A stretch of 64,000 nucleotides of DNA, taken from positions 1,426,001-1,490,000 of the forward strand of contig NZ_CP097121.1 of assembly GCF_024029675.1 (NCBI RefSeq). The letters run 5' to 3'. Made by a program: the position numbers and the translations under genes. Under the pieces are notes generated by a model. That model saw nothing but the letters and a program-made list of their open reading frames with translations. It ran no database searches and was not told where the DNA came from. The stretch is from Fructilactobacillus carniphilus. Lineage in GTDB: Bacteria > Bacillota > Bacilli > Lactobacillales > Lactobacillaceae. Positions 1-10,822 of the stretch are shown here, piece by piece (position 1 is the first letter of the stretch; the number at the start of each line of letters is the position of its first letter).

Positions 1-593
1 TTCGGTTATTTGTCTTCTTTCTGATCTTAACTGCGTGCTTTCAATTACTATTGGTGCACACGGGACCCAGCTTGTGGCAATGGGGGATTTTGCAGGTGAC
101 TTCCGGTAGCTTACGGGCGGCGGCGTTGTTATTGGCCAAGTTTGGGACGGCGCTGGTGGTGCTGAACCTTCTAACGTTAATTGCTAATCCGGTCGCAATG
201 ACCGCTGCTTGTGAGCGAGGACTGGCCCCGCTCCAAAGAGTAGGAATTCCGGTGGGAGATGTCGCGTTAACCCTCAGCATTGCGTTTCGGTTCGTACCGA
301 CGTTAACTGCTGAGTTCCAAACGGTGACCGCAGCACAACAGGCGCGCGGGATTACCTATCGCACTGGTCCTTTAAAACAACGAATCCAGGCGCTCTTAGC
401 CGTGTTCTTGCCGGTGCTCGTGAATAGTTTTCGACGGGCCGAGGATTTAGCTGCAGCGATGCTCCTCCGGGGCTATGATGGGAAGCATCAATTACCCCAA
501 TACCTGGTACCCCAACGAACGAGCAAGGACTGGCTCACAATCGGTACGAGCTTATTGCTTCTAGTATTAATCATTGGGATTAACTATTTATAA
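1..593 (+). CDS. ecfT: ECF transporter transmembrane protein EcfT (5'-truncated by window edge)
   Basis: The reading frame is open from base 3, so only about the last 196 residues of a protein that normally has about 265 are present. It is hydrophobic and carries the two EcfT coupling motifs, QARG near the middle and LLRGY about 80 residues later; in this family these contact the two ATPases. EcfT is the scaffold of the energy-coupling-factor complex and links the EcfA/EcfA' ATPases to exchangeable vitamin- or metal-binding S components in the membrane. The ATPase genes would be expected just to the left, outside the window. The gene ends at a strong hairpin shared with the convergent gene. 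Confidence 0.9.
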   Translation, partial: RLFVFFLILTACFQLLLVHTGPSLWQWGILQVTSGSLRAAALLLAKFGTALVVLNLLTLIANPVAMTAACERGLAPLQRVGIPVGDVALTLSIAFRFVPTLTAEFQTVTAAQQARGITYRTGPLKQRIQALLAVFLPVLVNSFRRAEDLAAAMLLRGYDGKHQLPQYLVPQRTSKDWLTIGTSLLLLVLIIGINYL

Positions 594-601
594 CTAAAAA
601 G

Positions 602-634
602 ACAGTTATTTCATCGCGAAATAACTGTTTTTTA
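602..634. terminator. Bidirectional terminator between ecfT and the 5'-nucleotidase gene
   Basis: An 11-bp perfect stem (602-612 with 618-628) is flanked by T-runs on both strands and lies between two convergent genes. Confidence 0.85.
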
Positions 635-638
635 ATTG

Positions 639-2192
639 CTATTTAATTACTTTAAAGTTACGGGTGTGATCGGCCTTCACTTCAGGATGTTTTTGTAAGT
701 ACTTGGCAATCAGGTTACTCATCGTAATCGTATCGTACCGGATCACTTTATCTTCACTATACATTGGGTAGTGACCACCCCCGACGGCGCGGTAGGTATT
801 TAAGACGATCTTTAGTTTCATCTTATTGGTCACCGGTTTGCCGTGGTAGGTCGGATTAATGACGCGTTTCCCAATCGGATTAGAAACCTTAATCGTATAG
901 TCAATTCCAGCGTACATGTCGTAGTTGTAATCACGAATTTTAGGATGGTGATACCTGGGATCAACGATAATTTGGTCGTTTTTAATTGTAAAGTATTCAG
1001 CCGTTTTTTCGAGCGCCGCCTTTAAGTCGGCCCCGGTAATCTCTAACAACGAGAGGGTGTTGGGGTAGACGTAGTTGGTGATGATGTTGCGCATTGTGAT
1101 GGGATTTTCAAAACCCCGGGCTTCGTTGGAAAAGAGGGCGGTAGCCGAGACATCGCAACCCATTGTTTCCATCTGGACCTTTTGAATGAAGTTGACGAAG
1201 GCCGAACCATGGAGTCGAACCTGGAACGGATCGTCATAGGTCATGCTGCCGTCAATGTGAGCCAAGGGCAGGGCTAGCCATTTTTCGACGTTGGCTTCCG
1301 TTGCCGTAAAACTTTCAGCCGTTGTGGAATCCGGTTTAGCGTCCCCGGTCTTAATCAATTTTTGGTGACTCTTTTGGACCTGGTAGCGACCGTTCACGCG
1401 CTCCAAGTCGAGTTGGATGCGGCCGACGTAACTGCCCCGGTGCCCCGGTTGGACGTAGGGAATCCCAAATAACTTGCCGGCGAGCGCCCGGTGTTGGTGT
1501 CCCGTTGCCATCACGTCAATGCCCGGCACCTGCTGCATAATTGCGTAGGCTTCGTTTTCACCGTCAATTTTATCGTTCGGTTTGCCGTCGCTTAAATCGC
1601 GTTCAAAACCACCGTGGTAAAGAACCACCACGACGTCTGCTTTTTCCCGCATTTCGGGGACGTACTTTTGGGCAGCTTCTAGTGCAGAGATAAACTTTAG
1701 ATTGTGAATGCTCGCCTGGTTTTCCCAAGCATCTACGGATTGAGTGGTAAGTCCGAGCACGGCGACCCTTAAATCACCGCAAGTTTTAATGGCGTAAGGA
1801 TCTCCAAATGCAGGGGTACCGTCGTCATTTAAAATGTTCGCGGACACAAATTGACGCTGACTGCCCGCAATGGCGTTTTTCAGGTAGTCTTGACCGTAGT
1901 TAAATTCATGATTGCCAATCGTTCCAAAGTCATACTTGATGCTGTTAAAGGCTGCATTAATCGCAGTCGGGGCCGGAGCTTTTTCGACCTCAGCTTGATA
2001 GTAAGCAAGCGGTGATCCTTCCAAAAAGTCACCGTCGTCGAGGGTTAAGTGATACTCACTTTTTTCCTGTTCCCGCTTTAAAATGGTGGCCGCTTTTTCT
2101 AGACCAAAGGGCTGATTAGCGTGAGGCTTAACGTAATTCGTGGGTGCCAAGAAGCCGTGCGTATCGCTAGTGGTTAAGATTGTCAATTTCAT
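639..2192 (-). CDS. Metallophosphoesterase / 5'-nucleotidase family protein
   Basis: 517 residues. The N-terminal half is a calcineurin-like metallophosphatase domain with the ordered metal ligands visible as SDTHG (about residue 9), DDGDF (about 52), IGNHEF (about 96), LYHGG and TGHQH. The C-terminal half matches the 5'-nucleotidase substrate-binding domain. The family hydrolyses nucleoside monophosphates, UDP-sugars or 2',3'-cyclic nucleotides. There is no signal peptide, LPxTG or lipobox, so unlike most homologues it is probably cytoplasmic. It stands alone, divergent from spx. The exact substrate cannot be read from sequence. Confidence 0.88.
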   Translation of the reverse strand: MKLTILTTSDTHGFLAPTNYVKPHANQPFGLEKAATILKREQEKSEYHLTLDDGDFLEGSPLAYYQAEVEKAPAPTAINAAFNSIKYDFGTIGNHEFNYGQDYLKNAIAGSQRQFVSANILNDDGTPAFGDPYAIKTCGDLRVAVLGLTTQSVDAWENQASIHNLKFISALEAAQKYVPEMREKADVVVVLYHGGFERDLSDGKPNDKIDGENEAYAIMQQVPGIDVMATGHQHRALAGKLFGIPYVQPGHRGSYVGRIQLDLERVNGRYQVQKSHQKLIKTGDAKPDSTTAESFTATEANVEKWLALPLAHIDGSMTYDDPFQVRLHGSAFVNFIQKVQMETMGCDVSATALFSNEARGFENPITMRNIITNYVYPNTLSLLEITGADLKAALEKTAEYFTIKNDQIIVDPRYHHPKIRDYNYDMYAGIDYTIKVSNPIGKRVINPTYHGKPVTNKMKLKIVLNTYRAVGGGHYPMYSEDKVIRYDTITMSNLIAKYLQKHPEVKADHTRNFKVIK

Positions 2193-2394
2193 GTGCAGCC
2201 CTCCATCGGATTGTAGAATGTTTAAATTATAATATTAAAAAGCGTTCGTGTAAATTAAGTAAAGTAATTATTAAGTTTTAAAAAGCACGTTGAACTCTTG
2301 GATTATTATGATAAGATAGAGTTGTCTAATAAATAGTCAATATTTGTCAGACGTACTTTATGTCACATGCTTTGCATGAGGAGGTAGGCTGATA

Positions 2395-2790
2395 ATGTTA
2401 AACTTATATGTTGCACCAAGTAGCGCATCTAGTCGGAAGGCACGGGCTTGGTTAAAAGATCACGACATTCCCTTTAAAGAAAGAAACATTAACTCGAAAC
2501 CATTAAATGCTGCCGAAGTAAAACACATTTTACGGTTAACCGAAAATGGGAGTGAAGACATCATCTCCACTCGTTCCAACATTTTCAAGAAGCTGCACTT
2601 AAACTTGGATGACTTGTCCTTAACTCAATTAGTTGACTTATTGGTTAAGTATCCAGATTTAATCAAGCGGCCCATCATCTTTGATGACAAGCGGCTCGAA
2701 GTGGGTTACAACGAAGAAGAAATTCGGCGTTTCTTACCACGTAGCATTCGGCAAGCAGAACTCAAAGAACTAGAAGCAAAATTAAGTTAA
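2395..2790 (+). CDS. spx: Spx-family transcriptional regulator lacking the CxxC redox switch
   Basis: 131 residues, the normal Spx/ArsC-fold length. Spx binds the alpha C-terminal domain of RNA polymerase and redirects transcription during thiol stress. Conserved blocks are present: SRKARAWL, the TRS motif, KRPIIFD and GYNEEEIRRFLPR. At the position of the usual CTSC switch this protein reads SASS (residues 10-13), so both cysteines are serines and there is no cysteine elsewhere. It could act as a constitutive, redox-blind Spx, or as a paralogue beside a canonical Spx elsewhere. A GAGGAG-type ribosome site precedes the ATG and a terminator follows. Confidence 0.9.
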   Translation: MLNLYVAPSSASSRKARAWLKDHDIPFKERNINSKPLNAAEVKHILRLTENGSEDIISTRSNIFKKLHLNLDDLSLTQLVDLLVKYPDLIKRPIIFDDKRLEVGYNEEEIRRFLPRSIRQAELKELEAKLS

Positions 2791-2801
2791 TAATTACTAC
2801 G

Positions 2802-2826
2802 GACGCCTTGTTTAAGGCGTCTTTTT
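2802..2826 (+). terminator. Intrinsic terminator after spx
   Basis: GACGCCTT pairs with AAGGCGTC, followed by five T. Confidence 0.85.
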
Positions 2827-2841
2827 GATTGGAGTAAAATC

Positions 2842-3648
2842 ATGATTAAGTTGATTGCGTTGGATTTAGACAATACCCTCTTAAACTCCCAAAAGCAGAT
2901 TAGTCTCGCAAACGAACGGGAACTGCGGTGCTTACATGAAGCGGGAATGAAGGTCGTACTCTGTACCGGTCGGCCGATTAACGCCATTTGGAATTACATC
3001 GAACAACTGGGACTAACGGAACCGGAAGACGCCACGATCACCTTTAATGGGGGGTTAGTGCTGGATAACACGACCCGTAAGGTGTTGGCTCAACGGGGAA
3101 TGAATAAGCAGTCCCTACAACCTTTGTACCAATTTGCGCAGGAGCAGGGCGTTCCGTTGGATGTGCTTGATTTTAACCGGGTTTATCCGGTTAGTGATCT
3201 GGGCAGTTCGATTTATCGCGATAAGTTAAACGGAAAGATCGACTTTGAACCCCGTTCGTTTGTCGATTTACTGGAGCAAGAGTGTGCGAAGGGGATTCTT
3301 GCTAATACTTCAGCTGAACTAGATCGGTTGCAACAAAGCTTACCGGACGCTGTAAAACAACAATACCACATTGTGCGCTCCCAACCCGAAATTTTGGAGT
3401 TTTTACCACCAAAAGTGGATAAAGCGGTTGGATTAGATGATCTCTTACACCACTTTGGTTGGGATTTTTCAAACCTGATGGCGTTTGGGGATGCGGAAAA
3501 CGATGCCGGTATGTTAGAAAAAGCGGCAGTGGGAGTCGCAATGGGCAATGCTTCCTCGGAAATTAAGCAAATTGCGAACCAGGTCACGACCACGAATGAC
3601 GCAGACGGGGTAGCAGTTTTTTTACGTCAATATTTTTCAAAGCAATAA
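2842..3648 (+). CDS. Cof-type HAD-IIB family phosphatase
   Basis: 268 residues, typical of Cof/YidA sugar-phosphatase-like enzymes. The nucleophile motif DLDNTL lies at residues 8-13, the second motif is CTGRP, and the C-terminal metal motif is GDAENDAGM near residue 217. The insertion between them is the type IIB cap domain. The family dephosphorylates a wide range of sugar phosphates and nucleotides in the cytoplasm; the substrate is not predictable. The start is the ATG after GGAG. It follows spx closely but behind a terminator, so it is probably separately transcribed. Confidence 0.88.
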   Translation: MIKLIALDLDNTLLNSQKQISLANERELRCLHEAGMKVVLCTGRPINAIWNYIEQLGLTEPEDATITFNGGLVLDNTTRKVLAQRGMNKQSLQPLYQFAQEQGVPLDVLDFNRVYPVSDLGSSIYRDKLNGKIDFEPRSFVDLLEQECAKGILANTSAELDRLQQSLPDAVKQQYHIVRSQPEILEFLPPKVDKAVGLDDLLHHFGWDFSNLMAFGDAENDAGMLEKAAVGVAMGNASSEIKQIANQVTTTNDADGVAVFLRQYFSKQ

Positions 3649-3712
3649 ACGAACTTTTTCGTTGATAAGATTACAAAAACAACCATAAACCGAAAATTAT
3701 TATAAAAAGCGG

Positions 3713-3740
3713 TTGACTTTCTGATTTTTTCCTGTATATT
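3713..3740 (+). promoter_or_regulatory. SigA promoter of the leader peptide / transporter transcript
   Basis: TTGACT at 3713-3718 and TATATT at 3735-3740, 16-nt spacer, just upstream of the leader ribosome binding site. Confidence 0.7.
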
Positions 3741-3766
3741 TAGAAAAAACGCAAAGGAGACCCATC

Positions 3767-3838
3767 ATGAAACCAACGATGAATTTTACGAACAACGTCT
3801 TAGTCTTGAGCTTAATTAACGAAATTATTATTCGTTAG
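3767..3838 (+). CDS. 23-residue branched-chain-amino-acid-rich leader peptide
   Basis: The ATG follows AAAGGAGA with a 7-nt spacer. The peptide ends VLVLSLINEIIIR and then a stop; 10 of its last 13 residues are Val, Leu or Ile apart from S, N, E and R, with three successive ATT isoleucine codons right before the Arg-stop. Directly after the stop begin overlapping hairpins that end in an intrinsic terminator, 150 nt before a transporter gene. This is the layout of a ribosome-stalling attenuation leader responding to charged tRNA-Ile, Leu or Val. The ORF is seen directly; the regulatory role is inferred. Confidence 0.75.
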   Translation: MKPTMNFTNNVLVLSLINEIIIR

Positions 3839-3839
3839 T

Positions 3840-3950
3840 GAGGTCAAGTACTTTGGACTGACCTCACCCGCTTGAGGCCAGTCCTTTGTTCGCTTACAGA
3901 TTCATCGCAGAACAGCGCTGGTTAGTAACTTAACCGGCGCTGTTTTTGTT
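3840..3950 (+). promoter_or_regulatory. Transcription attenuator ahead of PTS_EIIC_2-type transporter gene
   Basis: Four overlapping pairings are visible. GAGGTCA 3840-3846 pairs with TGACCTC 3859-3865. GGACTG plus CCTCA (3855-3866) pairs with TGAGG plus CAGTCC (3874-3884), sharing bases with the first. TGTTCGC 3887-3893 pairs with GC-a-GAACA 3907-3914, which overlaps the 5' arm of the final stem. The final stem 3911-3945 is a GC-rich hairpin followed by TTTTTGTTTT, an intrinsic terminator. Sharing of arms between neighbouring stems is what an attenuator needs; which state is ON cannot be decided here. Confidence 0.72.
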
Positions 3951-3992
3951 TTAAGATAGGAATTCTGACACTATTATGGGAGGAAATCACAA

Positions 3993-5090
3993 ATGAAGAA
4001 GGTACGACGAAAGACAACCGAACCCACGCCCACCAATTGGAAGGGTTGGGTGTATCAAGTTTCCCAAGGAGTTTCCAATACGATTTTAGCTGTTTTAGGG
4101 ATGGGATTATTACTGAGTACCCTCGGAACCATGTTGCACTGGCAACCGCTCAACGAAGCCGGTTTGATTGGTCAACGCTTATTAGCTCCTGCATTGGGAA
4201 TGTCCGTAGCGGTCATGCTCCGAACGACTACGTTAGTTACCGGAGCCACCATGATTGCTTCGACGGTAGGGGCCAACTCGGTGTACTTCACCACCGCTCC
4301 GGTTGCCAAAACCATGACGGCGACCAGCTGGGTGGCTCCCCAAGCGTCTGGATCGGCCATCTTGACAATCGGACAGCCAGTGTCCGCCGTGTTAGCAGCA
4401 GTGGTCGCTGCTTTAATTGGAAAATGGTTAACGGGCAGAACCCCACTTGATTTGGTGTTGGTCCCGCTTGCGACGGCCTTAACTGGTTGTATTGCTGGAC
4501 TGGGATTTGCGGCTGTAACGACGCCCGCATTGAACTGGATCAGTGAACGGTTGGCGGATACGATGCAAATCAGTCCAATTGTGGGTTCGATGGTAGTGGC
4601 CACCGCTTGGTTCCTGTTCCTAATGACGCCCGCTTCTTCTGCAGCCTTAGCCATCGCCGTGCAGCTCGATCCGAAGTCGGGAGGCGCCGCCATGATCGGG
4701 ACCACCATCGGGTTCGTCATCTTTACCGCGATGTCGTTTAGAGAAAATGACTGGGGTGGCAACATTGCCCAAACGCTGGTAACGCCGAAGGTACAATTTC
4801 CGAACCTGTTGAAACGACCACTGTACGCGGTAGGACCGCTCCTAATCGTAATGGTGCTGGCCCCGATTTCCGTAGTGGGCTTTCATTTCCAGGCACCGTA
4901 CACGATTGCCGGATTAGGGTTGAACTCCTTGATTGCGCCACTCTGGTACTGGGCAAACGACAAGACGGGCTTGGTACTGCTATTGGCCTTTGGAGTAGTA
5001 ATTCCGGCTTGCCTTGGTTTTGCTTACTATCAACTATTGAAGCTACTGGGGAAGACGGCGCCGGCCGATCTCCATTTAGAAGAAGTGTAA
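3993..5090 (+). CDS. PTS_EIIC_2-family membrane transporter, substrate unknown
   Basis: 365 residues with about nine or ten hydrophobic segments rich in Ala, Gly and Thr. It resembles the PTS_EIIC_2 family, often labelled PTS transporter subunit IIC or regulator, which lacks EIIA and EIIB domains; no phosphotransferase domain or PTS gene is present here either. The gene sits alone behind a leader peptide loaded with Ile, Leu and Val codons and an attenuator. That context suggests a role with branched-chain amino acids or a derivative rather than sugar, but this is inference from regulation only. It ends at a bidirectional terminator. Confidence 0.75.
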   Translation: MKKVRRKTTEPTPTNWKGWVYQVSQGVSNTILAVLGMGLLLSTLGTMLHWQPLNEAGLIGQRLLAPALGMSVAVMLRTTTLVTGATMIASTVGANSVYFTTAPVAKTMTATSWVAPQASGSAILTIGQPVSAVLAAVVAALIGKWLTGRTPLDLVLVPLATALTGCIAGLGFAAVTTPALNWISERLADTMQISPIVGSMVVATAWFLFLMTPASSAALAIAVQLDPKSGGAAMIGTTIGFVIFTAMSFRENDWGGNIAQTLVTPKVQFPNLLKRPLYAVGPLLIVMVLAPISVVGFHFQAPYTIAGLGLNSLIAPLWYWANDKTGLVLLLAFGVVIPACLGFAYYQLLKLLGKTAPADLHLEEV

Positions 5091-5098
5091 TCCAACTA

Positions 5099-5132
5099 AA
5101 AAAGGACTGGAAATTTTTCCAGTCCTTTTTTC
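5099..5132. terminator. Bidirectional terminator
   Basis: AAAAGGACTGG/CCAGTCCTTTT stem with T-runs on both strands, between convergent genes. Confidence 0.88.
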
Positions 5133-5136
5133 ATGT

Positions 5137-6084
5137 TTAATTAAAGAGTTGCTTAAAGTGATCCATGAAGACCTGGAGGTACCGGTCCTTGTCCACGGCC
5201 ACCGCAACTTTAACGTTCGGGTTCGGGTCGTTGAGCCGCGCCTTATCACCAATCGTCCGGGCGTAGTAAGCGTCGTGTTCGGTGGTCACCATCATGTTCA
5301 TGTCGATGGTGGTTACAAAATTGGGGTCAATAGCGACTCCGACAGCCAGGGGATCATGTAAGGAACAACCGCCCAACTCGGGGTAAAGGTCTGCATACAC
5401 GTCAATGTAGAAGTCTACGATGTCAGCCATTTTGCTGCCGGCCTCAGTAGTCCGCCATTGGCTCGTTTCGTGCTTAGTTAGCAGGGTTCTGAGGGTCACG
5501 TCTAAACCAACCATAGTGACGTTTAGGTCACTGGTAAAGAGTTGGTTGGCAGCCACGGGGTCTTGTTCTACGTTGGCTTCGGCCACGGGAGTCACGTTAC
5601 CAGGTACCGTGAGCGCGCCCCCCATGATGGTGATGTTGCCAATTTTTTTCATAGTTGCTGGATCTTGTTCCCAAGCAGCCGCGAGATTTGTCATCGGACC
5701 CGTGGCTACAACGGTCAATTGATCGCCGTATTCCTGAGCAGCGGTTAAGAGAAAGTTCACGCCGTCCTGGGTGGCCACTGGTTGGGTGGGATTCGGGAGT
5801 TCAACTTCTCCAATTCCATTTTCACCGTGAATCTGGGAGTTAACGCCAATTCGTTGGTAGTTGTGATCTAGCGGATTTTGGTGGCCGATAAACACCGGAA
5901 CGTCGTCGGCACCCACGAGGTGTAAAATTTTGAGAGCATTTTGGGCAGCCCGGTCGGATTCGATGTTACCAAAGGAGGATAGGATTCCAATTAATTCAAC
6001 TTCGGGATCAGCCACGGCATAGGCAATCGCCATCGCGTCATCAATCCCCGTATCAACATCTAAAATCATTTTCTGAACACTCAT
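5137..6084 (-). CDS. Inosine-uridine preferring nucleoside hydrolase family protein
   Basis: 315 residues, the usual family length. The calcium-binding signature DVDTGIDDA occurs at residues 9-17, followed by the GNI segment and a C-terminal HDPLAV block that supplies the catalytic His and another calcium ligand. The family cleaves the N-glycosidic bond of ribonucleosides to free base and ribose in salvage. This fits the ribokinase and 5'-nucleotidase elsewhere in the window, though these are not linked. GGAGG precedes the ATG with good spacing. Purine or pyrimidine preference is not readable. Confidence 0.92.
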   Translation of the reverse strand: MSVQKMILDVDTGIDDAMAIAYAVADPEVELIGILSSFGNIESDRAAQNALKILHLVGADDVPVFIGHQNPLDHNYQRIGVNSQIHGENGIGEVELPNPTQPVATQDGVNFLLTAAQEYGDQLTVVATGPMTNLAAAWEQDPATMKKIGNITIMGGALTVPGNVTPVAEANVEQDPVAANQLFTSDLNVTMVGLDVTLRTLLTKHETSQWRTTEAGSKMADIVDFYIDVYADLYPELGGCSLHDPLAVGVAIDPNFVTTIDMNMMVTTEHDAYYARTIGDKARLNDPNPNVKVAVAVDKDRYLQVFMDHFKQLFN

Positions 6085-6170
6085 GCGTTAACCTCCACTA
6101 AATATTAGTTATTTAATCCTATAATACTGTAATGCACAGGTGAAAACAACCGAAAATTAGTCAAATGCGA

Positions 6171-6201
6171 ACAAAAAGCGATTATCGTTCGATAATCGCT
6201 T
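6171..6201 (-). terminator. Terminator of the alpha/beta hydrolase gene
   Basis: AAGCGATTATC/GATAATCGCTT perfect stem with T-run on the minus strand. Confidence 0.85.
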
Positions 6202-6206
6202 GGATT

Positions 6207-6968
6207 TTAGTTGAACATGTATTCTCCGATGATCTTGTTGACCTCAGGATTTTCATGGAGCATCGAGTGTTGCGCTTGTTGCGGATCACCGTTATAAACG
6301 TAGAGTTTGTAGCTCTTTACATGGCCCCGCACCAGTTCCTTCATCTTGACTACGTCTCGGACCGGAATTAAACCATCACTCCCGGTGTTGCTGACGTTTC
6401 CACAGAAGTTTAAGATCTGCAGGTTCTTAGGCAGGTTCGTGATGTTGGGATCCTTCAGAGGGTAAGTGTTTGCCATGGAAACAAATTTTACCGTTTCTGG
6501 TTGATCAGCCGTTTTCCGGTACTTGGTCAGGTAGTCGTAAATAATTTCTCCCCCAGAAGAGTGGCCAATCAGGTTGACCTTTTGAATGCCATAGTTTTTC
6601 TTGAGGTAAGCTAGTAACTGCGGCATGTGGGTTGCTTCAAAACTTGGTTTATTGTTAGTTTGGAAATTTGCCTGAATGACCGGATTATTTTTCCCGATTT
6701 TATTAAACTGTTTGGCGGTGCTAACCTTCCCGTTATCCTTAACGTAGACTTGCAAAGCCTTGGTAGCGGCCCCGTTCTTATCCCACGAAGAAACCATGTA
6801 GTCTGAGGTAATGTAATTCCCCCCTAATCCAGGAATAAAGACCGTGGCCGTTCGGGATTGCTTAACGTGATAGTTGGCGGCTTTTTGAGTGTTATACCAC
6901 CAGCCACCGAATCCGGTTCCAACGACTAATAAAAAGATGAAAAAAATAAATGTCTTCTTGTGTTTCAT
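6207..6968 (-). CDS. Membrane-anchored alpha/beta hydrolase (DUF915-like)
   Basis: 253 residues. A Lys-rich start and one hydrophobic segment (residues 6-22) predict an N-terminal anchor or uncleaved signal, placing the rest outside the cell. The nucleophile elbow GHSSGG lies near residue 136, preceded by an oxyanion-hole FIPGLGGN block. The late acid (around SDGLIPVRD) and histidine (AQHSMLHEN) positions match DUF915 serine hydrolases of lactobacilli. Substrate unknown, probably an ester or lipid. Monocistronic with its own terminator; divergent from the reductase gene. Confidence 0.85.
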   Translation of the reverse strand: MKHKKTFIFFIFLLVVGTGFGGWWYNTQKAANYHVKQSRTATVFIPGLGGNYITSDYMVSSWDKNGAATKALQVYVKDNGKVSTAKQFNKIGKNNPVIQANFQTNNKPSFEATHMPQLLAYLKKNYGIQKVNLIGHSSGGEIIYDYLTKYRKTADQPETVKFVSMANTYPLKDPNITNLPKNLQILNFCGNVSNTGSDGLIPVRDVVKMKELVRGHVKSYKLYVYNGDPQQAQHSMLHENPEVNKIIGEYMFN

Positions 6969-7012
6969 GTTAAAATTCCTTTGTAAATAAAATTTAGTGA
7001 GGACGGATAAGA

Positions 7013-8005
7013 ATGACCAACGTTGTCTATGATATCACAATTATTGGTGGGGGACCCGTCGGAATGTTCACGGGTTTTTACGCCGGATTACGGGAAGCTA
7101 AGGTCCAAATTATTGAGAGTTTGGAACAGCTGGGCGGTCAAGTGATGGCCCAGTATCCCGAAAAGAACATTCTCGACGTAGCGGGGTTTGCCGGCGTTAG
7201 CGGTCGCCAACTCGTGCAGAATCTAGAAGCGCAGTTAGATACGGTGCCGGAGGTCGAACGCCACCTCAATACTAAGGTGACGAACGTAACCAAGCACGAT
7301 GATTACTTTGAAATTGAGACCACCCAGGGAACCAGTAAAAGCCGAGCAGTTATTTTGGCCGCTGGGAACGGTGCCTTTCACCCTCGAGAATTACGGGCAG
7401 AAAACGCCGAAGCAGAAACCGGTAAACATTTGTTTTACGGAATCTCTGATTTGAGCCGCTTTGCTGGTCAGGACGTTCTGGTCGCTGGGGGCGGAAATTC
7501 TGCCGTCGACATGGCGTTGATGCTAGAACCAGTGGCCCATCAGGTAACCTTGATCCACCGACGCAACGAATTTCGGGGATTGGAAAAGATGGTTCACCAA
7601 CTGGAAGCATCTTCGGTCCAGATTGTAACCCCCTACTTGATTCAAAAACTGAATGAAGTCGACCACCGCCTCCAGGTCGAAGCGAAACGGATGAAAACGG
7701 ACGATGATTTCATCACACTGACGGTGGACGACGTGGTGGTTAACTACGGCTTTATTGCCAACAATAAGGATTTGGAAGTTTGGGACGTTCAGCCAGAACT
7801 GGAACACTCCTTGGTTAAAGTTAATCGCGAGTTAGAAAGTAGCGTGCCGTTGCTCTTTAGCGTGGGAGATCAGGCCATTTATCCAGGGAAGGATACGCTG
7901 ATTGCCACGGGCTTTGGGGAAGCTCCCCTCGCCGTAAATACGATTATGAAACGCCTTTATCCGGACCGGCAACTGCCAATTCACAGTACGTCGTTGAAGC
8001 GCTAG
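7013..8005 (+). CDS. Ferredoxin/flavodoxin-NADP+ reductase, thioredoxin-reductase-like (YumC type)
   Basis: 330 residues. The FAD-binding GGGPVGM motif is at residues 12-18 and the NADPH-binding GGGNSAVD motif near residue 162. There is no CxxC between them, which separates this type 2 reductase from thioredoxin reductase. The C-terminal SVGDQ and ATGFGEA blocks complete the FAD site. It transfers electrons from NADPH to ferredoxin or flavodoxin in the cytoplasm. The downstream DUF1054 gene begins 17 nt after its stop, so the two are probably cotranscribed. Confidence 0.93.
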   Translation: MTNVVYDITIIGGGPVGMFTGFYAGLREAKVQIIESLEQLGGQVMAQYPEKNILDVAGFAGVSGRQLVQNLEAQLDTVPEVERHLNTKVTNVTKHDDYFEIETTQGTSKSRAVILAAGNGAFHPRELRAENAEAETGKHLFYGISDLSRFAGQDVLVAGGGNSAVDMALMLEPVAHQVTLIHRRNEFRGLEKMVHQLEASSVQIVTPYLIQKLNEVDHRLQVEAKRMKTDDDFITLTVDDVVVNYGFIANNKDLEVWDVQPELEHSLVKVNRELESSVPLLFSVGDQAIYPGKDTLIATGFGEAPLAVNTIMKRLYPDRQLPIHSTSLKR

Positions 8006-8022
8006 AAGGGGTGACCAGTCAT

Positions 8023-8616
8023 ATGTTTACTGACAGTGATTTTAAGGTATTTGAAGCGCCCACGTTGAACGAACGGATGGAGCGAATCCGGTCCGTGCTG
8101 GATCCTCAATTTGAGGAAGCGGCGCAGACCTTCTTACCAATTTTGGCAACGACGGGCGAAACGTGGTACGCGCACGTTGCCAAGCACCGGATGCGGACCA
8201 CGAATCCGCCTGACAATACGTGGGTGGCTTTTTCGACGAATCCACGGGGGTACAAAATGTTGCCTCACTTTGAACTGGGTTGTTGGGCCGACCACTTGTA
8301 CTTCTATTTAGCGGTTGAAAGTAACATGAAGCCCCAGTACACCAGTACGATTATTCCGAAGTTAGAAGCGCTCGCCCCGTTAGTAGCTCGGTTACCGAGG
8401 AACTTTGTGTTAAGTGCCAACCACATGGTAGAACAAACTTTACCAGTAGCCGACTATGAGCAACTAGTTGAGCGATTCCAGAATGTGAAAGCCGCGGAGG
8501 TCTTAATTGGAATTCAGATTCAACGTGGTGATCCTCGGTTAGGAACGCCCCAAGTGCTTGTGGATTTAGAACAGACGTTACAGACTTTATTACCTTTATA
8601 CCAACGATTGCAGTAA
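8023..8616 (+). CDS. DUF1054 family protein
   Basis: 197 residues from the ATG at 8023. This start follows AAGGGGTGA with good spacing and gives the usual MFTDxDFKVFE opening; a GTG 12 nt earlier would lie inside the ribosome site. DUF1054 (YktB-like) proteins are small globular cytoplasmic proteins of Firmicutes without assigned activity. Conserved features seen are KHxRRT-like KHRMRTTNPPDNTW and the GYKMLPHFELG block. It is probably in one transcript with the reductase and is followed by a bidirectional terminator. Confidence 0.88.
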   Translation: MFTDSDFKVFEAPTLNERMERIRSVLDPQFEEAAQTFLPILATTGETWYAHVAKHRMRTTNPPDNTWVAFSTNPRGYKMLPHFELGCWADHLYFYLAVESNMKPQYTSTIIPKLEALAPLVARLPRNFVLSANHMVEQTLPVADYEQLVERFQNVKAAEVLIGIQIQRGDPRLGTPQVLVDLEQTLQTLLPLYQRLQ

Positions 8617-8650
8617 AAAATCCATTCCCAATTATGGGAATGGATTTTTT
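8615..8650. terminator. Bidirectional terminator
   Basis: AAAAAATCCATTCCCA/TGGGAATGGATTTTTT stem between convergent genes. Confidence 0.88.
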
Positions 8651-8662
8651 AGTTAGGAACGA

Positions 8663-10822
8663 TTATTTTTCCTGGTTTGAATCCGGATTTTGAATTTGAA
8701 TTCGACTGGTATCACTGCGGGGTTCGTTAACTTCGGGTGCATCAGTCTTGTAGAGCTTCGTCGTATCCTTCTTGCCGTTAGTGTCAAAGAGACTCTTCGA
8801 TTTATCGCCTAACTGCTCTTCGGTCCGTTTTTCGTGACTAAGACCGTTGGAGTAGTTAAACTTCGTCGGGTCAACCTTTTGGAAGCCATCGGGATGGTAG
8901 AACTGCAGTAAGTTTTGCTGGTTCAAGGTATCGGATAACGATAGTTCGGTATTAACCTTTTCTTGAATCTCTTGCAGTTTTTTCTTCAACTTCTTGTCCG
9001 GATGGATGACCTTACCGGTCTTGGAATCGTAGATGGTTCCGTCCACGGAAGTGTATTCTGGGGAGACCCAATCCTTATTCCGGAAGGCGACCACCTGATC
9101 GTGCTTGGCAGAGAAGAGGTCCGTTCCAAACTGAATGTATTTCTGGGAGTTAATCCCTAGGAGGTGCATCAAGGTTGGTAAGACGTCAATTTCACCGCCG
9201 TAGGTGTGATCTACATAGCCATTGTTAATGGATGGCGAGTTAATCATGAATGGGACCCGTTGTAACTGGGCATTATCAAAGTTATTCCACTTCGACTCAC
9301 TCTTGCCCAGTAACGGGGCCAGAGTTGGGTTTTCGGAATTAGACAAACCGTAGTGGTCTCCGTAGAGGACGACGACCGTGTTCTTAGCGAGACCGGTTTT
9401 ATCGAGGTAGTCATAGAATTCCTTGATTGACTGATCTAGATAGTGGGCGGTCACAAAGTAATTGTTAACGGCACTATCATCCGTATCTGGAGTCTTAATT
9501 TTGTTGTCCTTGATGTCTTCATCATCAAGCTGGTACGGGAAGTGGTTGGTGACCGTGATGTACTTTGCGTAAAACGGCTGTTGTAGGTGCTGGAGGTACT
9601 TGATGGAATCCTTGAACAGCAGTTTATCCTTTAGACCGTAACCAGTGGCCTTATCTCCAGTCGTATCGTAGTAACTGGCATCAAAGAAGTACTGGTACCC
9701 CAGGTTTTTGTAGGTATTGTTCCGGTTCCAGAAACTGGCCACGTTTCCGTGGAAGACGGCCGAACTGTAACCATCTTGGCCGAGAATGGCGGGGGCCCCT
9801 TGGAAGGTATTGTCGCTTCCTAACTGGGCAAACAATGATCCCTGCGGCAAGCCGTAGGTGCTGGTTTCTAGCATGTTTTCGGCGTCAGAGGTTTTTCCCT
9901 GACCCACTTGGTGGAAAAAGTTATCGAAGGCATAAGTATGGTTACTGTTGTAGATTTGGTTTAAGAACGGCGTAACTTCCTTACCGTTGATTTTCTTGTT
10001 AATTAAAAATTGTTGGAAACTTTCCAGGTGAATAACCACCACGTTTTTGCCCTTTAACGTCCCAAATAAGTTAGGATTGGGTTCGGCGTAGTGGGCATCG
10101 GTAAAGGCCTTCACGTTATAAATTTCAGCTTTGTTGGCCTGGGACCGAAGCTCATTGGACTGGTGCGTCTGAAAGGCATCGTAAGCCGTAAAGACGTCTA
10201 AGCCCAGGTATTTAACCAGGTAATTCCGGTCAAAGGCCCGGGTCAGCAGTTGAGGGCGGTCCATGTCTGCTAACGTAATGTTAAAGGTTAGAAACAAGGC
10301 GCCAATGGAGAAAACTGCAAAGGCGAATCGATTGGAAAGACTTCGCTTGTCAATCTTGATCACCCGAAATAGGAGCAAGAAGATGACGATAATGATGTCT
10401 AACCAGTAAAACACGTCGTGAGGCATTGTGAGCGCTAAAGACGCACCACTCAGTCCTTGATCGACCTTGGAGTATCCGGTCATTGTGGACACGGTCATAA
10501 AATCGGTGAATTCTCGAAAGTAAATCACGTTTAAATACAGTAGGACGGTGTCAATGATGTCTAGAAGTAGGATGGCCGGATAAAAAAGTTTGGCCGGTTT
10601 AAAGTAAAACGCGAGCCCAAAGATTAGGATGGTCGTGGCAATCGGGTTAATGAACAGCAGCAAAAATTGCAGCGTTCCCTCGGTTCCCAATGCGAAGTCC
10701 GCAAAGTAGGCGTAAATGGTTTTTAACCAGAATAAAGCGATTAAGAGGACAAAAAAGCCAACTCGAGTATTAACCTTGGCTAGAATCTGTTTTATGAATT
10801 TCAAAGGTAAGATTCCCTTCAT
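8663..10822 (-). CDS. ltaS: LTA synthase family phosphoglycerol transferase
   Basis: 719 residues. Five hydrophobic segments in the first 210 residues are followed by an extracellular sulfatase-like domain with the metal and catalytic blocks VIHLESFQQF, GKTSDAE (catalytic Thr), and YGDHYG. It polymerises glycerol-phosphate from phosphatidylglycerol onto the lipoteichoic acid anchor. The C-terminal 90 residues are a charged, low-complexity tail. The annotated ATG has no ribosome site; a TTG six codons inside (10804) is preceded by AAGGGAATC and may be the real start. Single gene, convergent with DUF1054. Confidence 0.92.
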   Translation of the reverse strand: MKGILPLKFIKQILAKVNTRVGFFVLLIALFWLKTIYAYFADFALGTEGTLQFLLLFINPIATTILIFGLAFYFKPAKLFYPAILLLDIIDTVLLYLNVIYFREFTDFMTVSTMTGYSKVDQGLSGASLALTMPHDVFYWLDIIIVIFLLLFRVIKIDKRSLSNRFAFAVFSIGALFLTFNITLADMDRPQLLTRAFDRNYLVKYLGLDVFTAYDAFQTHQSNELRSQANKAEIYNVKAFTDAHYAEPNPNLFGTLKGKNVVVIHLESFQQFLINKKINGKEVTPFLNQIYNSNHTYAFDNFFHQVGQGKTSDAENMLETSTYGLPQGSLFAQLGSDNTFQGAPAILGQDGYSSAVFHGNVASFWNRNNTYKNLGYQYFFDASYYDTTGDKATGYGLKDKLLFKDSIKYLQHLQQPFYAKYITVTNHFPYQLDDEDIKDNKIKTPDTDDSAVNNYFVTAHYLDQSIKEFYDYLDKTGLAKNTVVVLYGDHYGLSNSENPTLAPLLGKSESKWNNFDNAQLQRVPFMINSPSINNGYVDHTYGGEIDVLPTLMHLLGINSQKYIQFGTDLFSAKHDQVVAFRNKDWVSPEYTSVDGTIYDSKTGKVIHPDKKLKKKLQEIQEKVNTELSLSDTLNQQNLLQFYHPDGFQKVDPTKFNYSNGLSHEKRTEEQLGDKSKSLFDTNGKKDTTKLYKTDAPEVNEPRSDTSRIQIQNPDSNQEK

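Follow-up and report, generated by a model that had tools for sequence, protein, structure and literature searches.

The 64,000-nucleotide stretch of Fructilactobacillus carniphilus DNA analysed here (hereafter the window; contig NZ_CP097121.1, positions 1,426,001 to 1,490,000, in a genome of 1.49 Mb) carries a short leader open reading frame (ORF), chained hairpins and an intrinsic terminator ahead of a lone gene for a membrane protein of the PF13303 (PTS_EIIC_2) family. This design of leader and hairpins is real and goes beyond chance, and we think it probable that it represents ribosome-mediated transcription attenuation of a branched-chain amino acid importer, one that has the fold of the EIIC component of the phosphotransferase system (PTS) and works independently of that system. 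In the proposed mechanism, the leader would sense charged Leu, Val and Ile tRNAs. When these amino acids are plentiful, a ribosome at the leader stop codon would cover RNA arm A, so that arms B and C pair, arm D is left free and the D:E hairpin terminates transcription. In shortage, the ribosome would stall within VLVLSLINEIII, allowing A to pair with B and C with D, in which case no terminator would form and the transporter would be made. Since the gene would be on during shortage, its product is most likely a branched-chain amino acid importer. We infer ribosome stalling, antitermination in the cell, the substrate and the direction of transport; the leader codons, together with a genome in which ilvC and ilvD were not found, suggest uptake of Leu, Ile and Val.

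A preliminary description of this DNA had listed a promoter, a ribosome site, a 23-codon ORF, hairpins, a terminator and a lone transporter gene, all of which were recovered (Table 1). The promoter-like site matches the consensus at 10 of 12 positions. As judged from the sequence, the leader ORF, whose C-terminal end is VLVLSLINEIIIR, appears to have its own ribosome site, with a strong Shine-Dalgarno sequence, and to precede the terminator closely, as the leader of an attenuator would. Folding of the leader RNA (3746-3992) gives -86 kcal/mol and a z score of -7.4, a stability equalled by none of 200 shuffles, and the antiterminator pairing C:D joins positions 3876-3882 with 3917-3923. The transporter gene is single, being followed by its own terminator-like site and then by a convergent nucleoside hydrolase gene (5137-6084).

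Table 1. Features of the attenuator locus in the window (numbered from its first letter), and the attenuators that precede NicO-type genes in two Leuconostoc genomes. SD, Shine-Dalgarno.
Feature	Position	Strand	Basis
Promoter-like site: TTGACT (3713-3718), 16-nt spacer, TATATT (3735-3740)	3713..3740	+	consensus match and placement before leader
Leader SD AAAGGAG, 7 nt 5' of ATG	3753..3759	+	sequence; SD length 7
Leader ORF MKPTMNFTNNVLVLSLINEIIIR plus stop, 23 codons; control codons Val, Leu, Ile	3767..3838	+	sequence; similar leaders in relatives
RNA arm A; overlaps leader stop codon, under a ribosome sitting at the stop	3838..3849	+	folds, covariation
RNA arm B; partner A or C	3855..3867	+	folds, covariation
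RNA arm C; partner B, or D (terminator 5' arm) as antiterminator	3873..3884	+	folds, covariation
Intrinsic terminator D:E, 17 pairs, then T-rich tail	3909..3946	+	hairpin scan, detector, covariation
SD-like GGGAGG of the transporter gene	3978..3983	+	sequence, read by eye
PF13303 (PTS_EIIC_2) membrane protein, 365 aa; predicted EIIC fold	3993..5090	+	Pfam, predicted structure; substrate inferred
Terminator-like site ending the single-gene transcript	5098..5131	+	hairpin scan
NicO attenuator (L261), leader MHKTMKQVNHSLLYLLLN	G134:C1:94078-94200		
NicO attenuator (L263), leader MNKTIKKMNHSLLYLLLS	G078:C1:1977660-1977789		

Homologues of the window protein (E <= 1e-30) are present in 131 of 301 Lactobacillaceae genomes. 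We took 125 of the upstream regions listed for this homologue set and an overlapping set of 80 with genus names, and applied a leader detector that calls an SD match of at least 4, an ORF of 12-45 codons with at least 7 Ile, Leu or Val in 10 residues, and a terminator before the gene. It was positive for 49 of the 125 and 31 of the 80, against 1 of 2500 dinucleotide shuffles, and its only call among 54 window ORFs of at least 150 amino acids (both strands, spurious ones included) was the PF13303 gene. In the named set it called all of the Weissella (8/8), Fructobacillus (4/4) and Convivina (2/2) regions and 12 of 14 from Leuconostoc. Some leaders recognised by eye, including those of O. oeni and of the closest relative (L002), score below its threshold, and one of the 49 calls (L107) is probably false and was dropped before the folding test described below. 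What the leaders share is a common design more than a common sequence: their runs read KINVVIII in Leuconostoc, IIVISPIVIII in Convivina, NNVIVISIIII in Fructobacillus, LLLGLILDLIIIS in Weissella and SIILISLVLLIRQ in Oenococcus, so that relatives keep, as in attenuators, a run of control codons of one amino acid class. The preliminary description had staked its reading on conservation before orthologous genes. This expectation was borne out among close relatives, which retain leader and hairpins, a leader being present in 36 of the 39 rows in the protein clade of the window gene; it failed for the distant homologues, which are mostly leaderless, and leader control is for this reason not family-wide.

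Inducible resistance genes, too, can have hydrophobic leaders with overlapping hairpins, and the element could thus be imagined as a sensor of a drug or ribosome inhibitor, of the ErmC or BmrC kind, that responds through a stalling peptide rather than through amino acid supply. We regard this as very unlikely, since what is conserved in the run is the class of amino acid and not the sequence, the choice of Leu or Ile/Val differs with the paralogue, no fixed stalling motif is apparent by eye in the leaders, and the target belongs to no known resistance family.

Other layouts were seen among the upstream regions. In leaderless regions from Lentilactobacillus, Lactiplantibacillus, Secundilactobacillus and Apilactobacillus (L061-L116), AT-rich TTCTCATT/TCTAATT repeats lie, by eye, between promoter and gene, and perhaps form a regulator site. 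Longer ORFs in Ligilactobacillus- and Liquorilactobacillus-like genomes (L087, L083, L094) have SLVII in common and end in NVSA plus one residue; the RNA structure overlaps the ORF in these, a possible variant layout of which the detector passes only L087.

The terminator and antiterminator hairpins are mutually exclusive, and both are visible in the pattern of sequence change between relatives. Three alignments were used: A2, with 18 rows, for the Leu class, A4, with 12, for the window type, and A3, with 14, for Leuconostoc. The helices of the stalled state, A:B and C:D, covary on all three, and those of the finished state, B:C and D:E, on A2 and A4. In each of these five tests, the share of paired cells, the cells changed on both sides and the covariation score all lay above those of all 500 shuffles, and with the partner shifted by 1-3 columns 21-54% of cells were paired, against 79-92% in register. 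In the stalled-state test on A3, 1 of 500 shuffles reached the number of pair types.

The predicted effect of ribosome position was assessed by a folding test that scores the share of terminator arm D that upstream RNA sequesters while arm E has yet to be transcribed, with no ribosome, a stalled ribosome or a ribosome at the stop. Sixty leaders were folded: 36 of the Ile/Val type, which is the class of the window, 19 of the Leu type and five long ones (L010, L080, L087, L093, L120) in which only codons in the last 14 were scored. Twelve sub-threshold leaders were added by hand (L002, L005, L011, L025, L026, L123, L129, L131, L132, L134, L135, L136), and the leader start of L138 was shortened. 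Over all 60, predicted sequestration was 0.40 without a ribosome, 0.64 with a stalled one and 0.46 at the stop, stalled exceeding stop in 57 leaders and by more than 0.2 in 27, whereas 480 spacer shuffles gave 0.52, 0.55 and 0.52 and a mean stalled-minus-stop difference of 0.034 against 0.190 observed. The Ile/Val-type leaders gave 0.28, 0.67 (stalled in the run) and 0.47; the stalled value is higher than the stop value in 34 of 36 and higher than the no-ribosome value in all 36, as in a super-attenuator. For the window itself the values are 0.72-0.85 with the ribosome at control codons 11-21, 0.43 at codon 22, 0.45 at the stop and 0.35 with no ribosome. Among 29 folds, A:B with C:D in the stalled state and B:C with D:E in the finished state are clear in most, not all. 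Folding thus predicts that ribosome position would decide which hairpin forms, and with the correct sign.

Further evidence for branched-chain sensing comes from the way in which leader codons sort with paralogues. A tree of 81 proteins, made by a quick method, contains a Leu clade of 19 rows (support 100), all with a candidate leader and 17 with a Leu run (e.g., NNALLLNLLLI), and a clade of 39 rows that includes the window protein (support 99; L004 and L143 represent a single gene), with Ile/Val-rich leaders in all rows except three from Lacticaseibacillus in which no leader was found. The two exceptions in the Leu clade, L238 and L240, have Ile/Val leaders and are second genes of tandem pairs; both leaders are marked with a query and neither was called by the detector. 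Leu/Ile/Val totals over the last 12 codons are 105/14/5 in the 19 Leu-clade leaders, 9/128/47 in 23 Ile-clade leaders from genomes that also have the Leu paralogue, and 54/69/13 in 17 Ile-clade leaders of genomes where no Leu paralogue was found. At least two Leu codons are present in 16 of the latter 17 Ile-type leaders and in 1 of the 23, the exceptions being Weissella cibaria and G181; the window, with a single paralogue and all three amino acids in its leader, fits this description. The link gives a Fisher p of 4e-9 with kinship ignored. On a tree it comes down to 3 changes and between 1 and 3 independent pairs, for which a sign test is not significant, and we therefore treat it as a lead only. 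That tree held 35 of 40 rows, leaving out G053, G117, G252, G244 and the discordant G181 (no full-length protein), and for G180, G251, G266 and G295 the evidence for a second paralogue consists of no more than a second match, at 44-46% identity. The window genome also has a second, distant homologue (L028, G000:C1:208669-209694) at 26% identity.

Tandem PF13303 pairs were observed in genomes of the Fructobacillus type and of g53, with an Ile/Val-type leader before the second gene although L238 and L240 adjoin the Leu clade. Two further second-of-tandem genes, found by an RNA model and outside the tree, have the Ile-type leaders QVIIIISLLNN (L265) and QVIIIVSLLNN (L266). The split between Leu and Ile/Val may have arisen twice, once with the ancient clades for Ile and Leu and a second time in the Fructobacillus-type tandem pairs, with a Leu copy and an Ile/Val copy.

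The transporter itself matches PF13303 at E 5.9e-63 (213 bits against a curated cut-off of 28.9) and no other Pfam family, PF02378 not being reported. Its predicted model (pLDDT 78) would have the EIIC fold. The nearest comparison is with the glucose-superfamily PTS EIIC proteins PtsG and MalT, whose fold it is predicted to share over most of its length, while differing in its ~12% identity to them and in having neither GITE nor PTS partners of the glucose type. GITE is the sugar-binding motif of PTS EIIC permeases, and no GITE-like motif was found in any of the 81 homologous proteins, in which the columns conserved to at least 85% include no His or Glu. A sequence search for relatives with solved structures returned nothing credible (best E 0.19), and NCBIfam has no family for the window protein. 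The remark in the preliminary description that PTS partners are missing could be extended from the locus to the genome for Enzyme I, glucose-type EIIB and glucose-type EIIA, none of which was found genome-wide, other EIIA and EIIB families not having been searched. HPr is present, perhaps kept for regulation only.

It could be supposed that the protein is nonetheless a true PTS sugar permease, the leader control being incidental. Members of the family are labelled as PTS components; the missing Enzyme I mostly refutes it for the window genome, and with no glucose-type EIIA or EIIB found, no GITE, no conserved His or Glu and a match to PF13303 without PF02378, we hold this reading to be exceedingly unlikely. 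The window protein is probably mislabelled as a sugar transporter. Members of the same Pfam family also carry the label PfoR, among them a Fructobacillus relative labelled membrane regulatory protein PfoR, from which the present case differs in that the evidence points to transport. We know of no function test of PF13303 in lactic acid bacteria. A literature search, which left most subscription journals outside its reach, found the PF13303 accession quoted at most, nothing under PTS_EIIC_2, and nothing on PF13303 under leader-peptide control.

Neither ilvC nor ilvD was found in the window genome (search controls positive 14/14), and a role of the leader in the control of biosynthesis was set aside because of this. 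The genome does contain two tandem BrnQ genes (L223 and L224, G000:C1:707575-710674), each behind a T-box that scores just under the gathering threshold, none reaching it, and their specifiers read as Val (GUA) and Ile (AUC). BrnQ and PF13303 thus seem to be controlled in different ways in this genome, the former by T-boxes and the latter by a leader peptide. For the window gene itself, a T-box leader was rejected: there was no T-box match at the gathering score, and none among six sub-threshold Rfam matches (E <= 5, 3640-4010), which resemble chance matches to hairpins. More broadly, at the gathering score no Rfam family covered the leaders scanned (the window; L172 and L191; 20 loci). The PF13303 homologue of Ligilactobacillus salitolerans (L180) does have a T-box directly 5' of it on the sense strand, at L180:1570-1822 (+), whose specifier reads as CUC (Leu). 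The same locus has a divergent T-box, L180:1154-1395 (-), before a gene labelled hydratase-like with no Pfam match at E 0.001.

A number of results weigh against attenuation of an importer as proposed here. The detector made no call in 76 of the 125 upstream regions; by genus it was negative throughout Lentilactobacillus, Lactiplantibacillus and Secundilactobacillus (0/9 each), Liquorilactobacillus (0/7), and Apilactobacillus and Lacticaseibacillus (0/3 each), and an Rfam scan of 20 loci for other elements left 19 without a match, the one match being a T-box that belongs to a divergent gene. In positions 1-10000, promoter-like sites are no more frequent than in shuffles (12 against 11.7), so the promoter is assigned by its position; terminator-like sites taken by themselves are not clearly enriched (15 against 12.4). 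The covariation shuffles do not preserve relatedness, and the structures were derived from alignment members, so the test favours them. Four of its five runs show no excess in the number of pair types (reached by 459, 69, 347 and 137 of 500 shuffles), and in three runs the pairs changed on both sides were reached by 20 (A2), 1 (A4) and 66 (A3) of 500. The C:D helix of A3 is nearly invariant and hence carries little covariation information, that of the window has three G-U among its seven pairs, and an extra helix 4 in A4 is paired in 57% of cells. In the folding test, the Leu-type leaders gave 0.54 without a ribosome, 0.56 stalled and 0.43 at the stop: the no-ribosome state is not low, stalled exceeds stop in 18 of 19 but by more than 0.2 only in five, L026 goes in the wrong direction, and the effect is weaker than the pooled figures suggested. 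The five long leaders gave 0.76, 0.66 and 0.42, the no-ribosome state never lying below the stalled one; in L046 and L048 stalled is not above stop, and in some folds, for example those of L004 and L005, B:C persists in the stalled state. The L. salitolerans T-box, at 73.6 bits (E 5.4e-16), is below the gathering score of 93, with a specifier read by eye only. Lastly, two BrnQ-type transporters being present, the PF13303 protein is not the sole candidate importer.

The unremarkable promoter and terminator scans and the many leaderless homologues are also what would be expected if the short ORF and hairpins were a chance assembly or a spent relic. This explanation is close to negligible: it is refuted by conservation across genera, where covariation and the stalled-versus-stop pattern hold, and by the single detector call in shuffles set against the calls in real upstream regions.

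A more substantial alternative is that branched-chain sensing operates as described and the cargo is something else tied to the same shortage, for instance a peptide, a keto or hydroxy acid of the branched-chain kind, or some nutrient required as growth slows. The BrnQ transporters already in the genome speak for it, as does the spread of the attenuator to other genes. A covariance model built for the Leu attenuator (R1) was run on 121 genomes and matched in 20; matches to E 1e-5 were examined together with one weaker, which lies before a tandem PF13303 gene. R1 matches also precede a NicO-type nickel transporter gene in two Leuconostoc genomes (identified by Pfam as PF03824 for L261 and by similarity for L263), with leaders ending LLYLLLN and LLYLLLS, and, in one genome, a gene read by eye as an XRE-type helix-turn-helix regulator (L262, G134:C1:108058-108184; leader MNKITTQLNNTFFALLVLM). 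Such leaders are thus not confined to amino acid genes, and caution is needed before each is taken to name a substrate. Matches of the window-type model (R2) are to the window and its close kin, apart from weak ones elsewhere. Against another cargo, the sorting of Leu and Ile/Val leaders with two protein clades fits a choice of substrate better than a general shortage signal, and one homologue has a T-box of its own; we judge a different cargo unlikely and continue to favour a branched-chain amino acid importer. The preliminary reading of branched-chain leader attenuation is upheld by the conserved leader and hairpins, their covariation and the codons that sort with paralogues.

Although the mechanism is a known one, the RNA family, its target and the function proposed for PF13303 are apparently new. 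Leader-peptide attenuation of branched-chain genes is described, in the parts of these papers available to us, for Rli60-ilv-leu in Listeria (PMC5864092) and for ilv-leu in S. aureus (PMC5794164), with mention there of the enteric ilv and leu attenuators. As presented there, these systems likewise have a short leader ORF of branched-chain codons, overlapping hairpins, a terminator and readthrough upon shortage, but they control biosynthesis operons, whereas the window element precedes a single transporter gene in a genome without detected ilvC or ilvD. The PF13303 paralogues differ further in having differing leader codons, in a comparison of design and not of RNA sequence. T-box leaders, from which the substrates of transporters for amino acids have been inferred (Wels and others 2008, PMC2494555, as far as its available text goes), are alike in that they control transcription by tRNA sensing, and they precede both BrnQ genes of the window genome and one PF13303 homologue. 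They differ from the window element, which has no T-box match and would sense through translation of its leader peptide. The available text of PMC2494555 names no PTS-like family; 'phosphotransferase' occurs 0 times, and 'pts' once, outside that text. A leader peptide that replaces a T-box in Firmicutes and is linked to gene duplication has a precedent in bacilli, where hisS paralogues are preceded by histidine leader peptides (Naville and Gautheret 2010, PMC2965389, in its main text), a case of another gene and another amino acid; that main text makes no mention of branched, leucine, Leuconostoc or Oenococcus.

On balance we lean towards the broader view that a PF13303 subfamily in the Lactobacillaceae is a new type of branched-chain amino acid importer with an EIIC fold that no longer depends on the PTS, whose duplicated copies split Leu from Ile/Val in a manner written in their leader codons. 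If true, this would give a testable substrate to a membrane family labelled as sugar permeases in databases, and it suggests that the EIIC fold can be used without the phosphotransferase system. It would also add a family of classical leader-peptide attenuators to the Lactobacillaceae, where BrnQ genes use T-boxes. The paralogues would provide a natural experiment, with the cargo of a transporter predicted by its regulatory codons, in genera of culturable and testable food bacteria, namely Fructilactobacillus, Weissella, Leuconostoc and Oenococcus.

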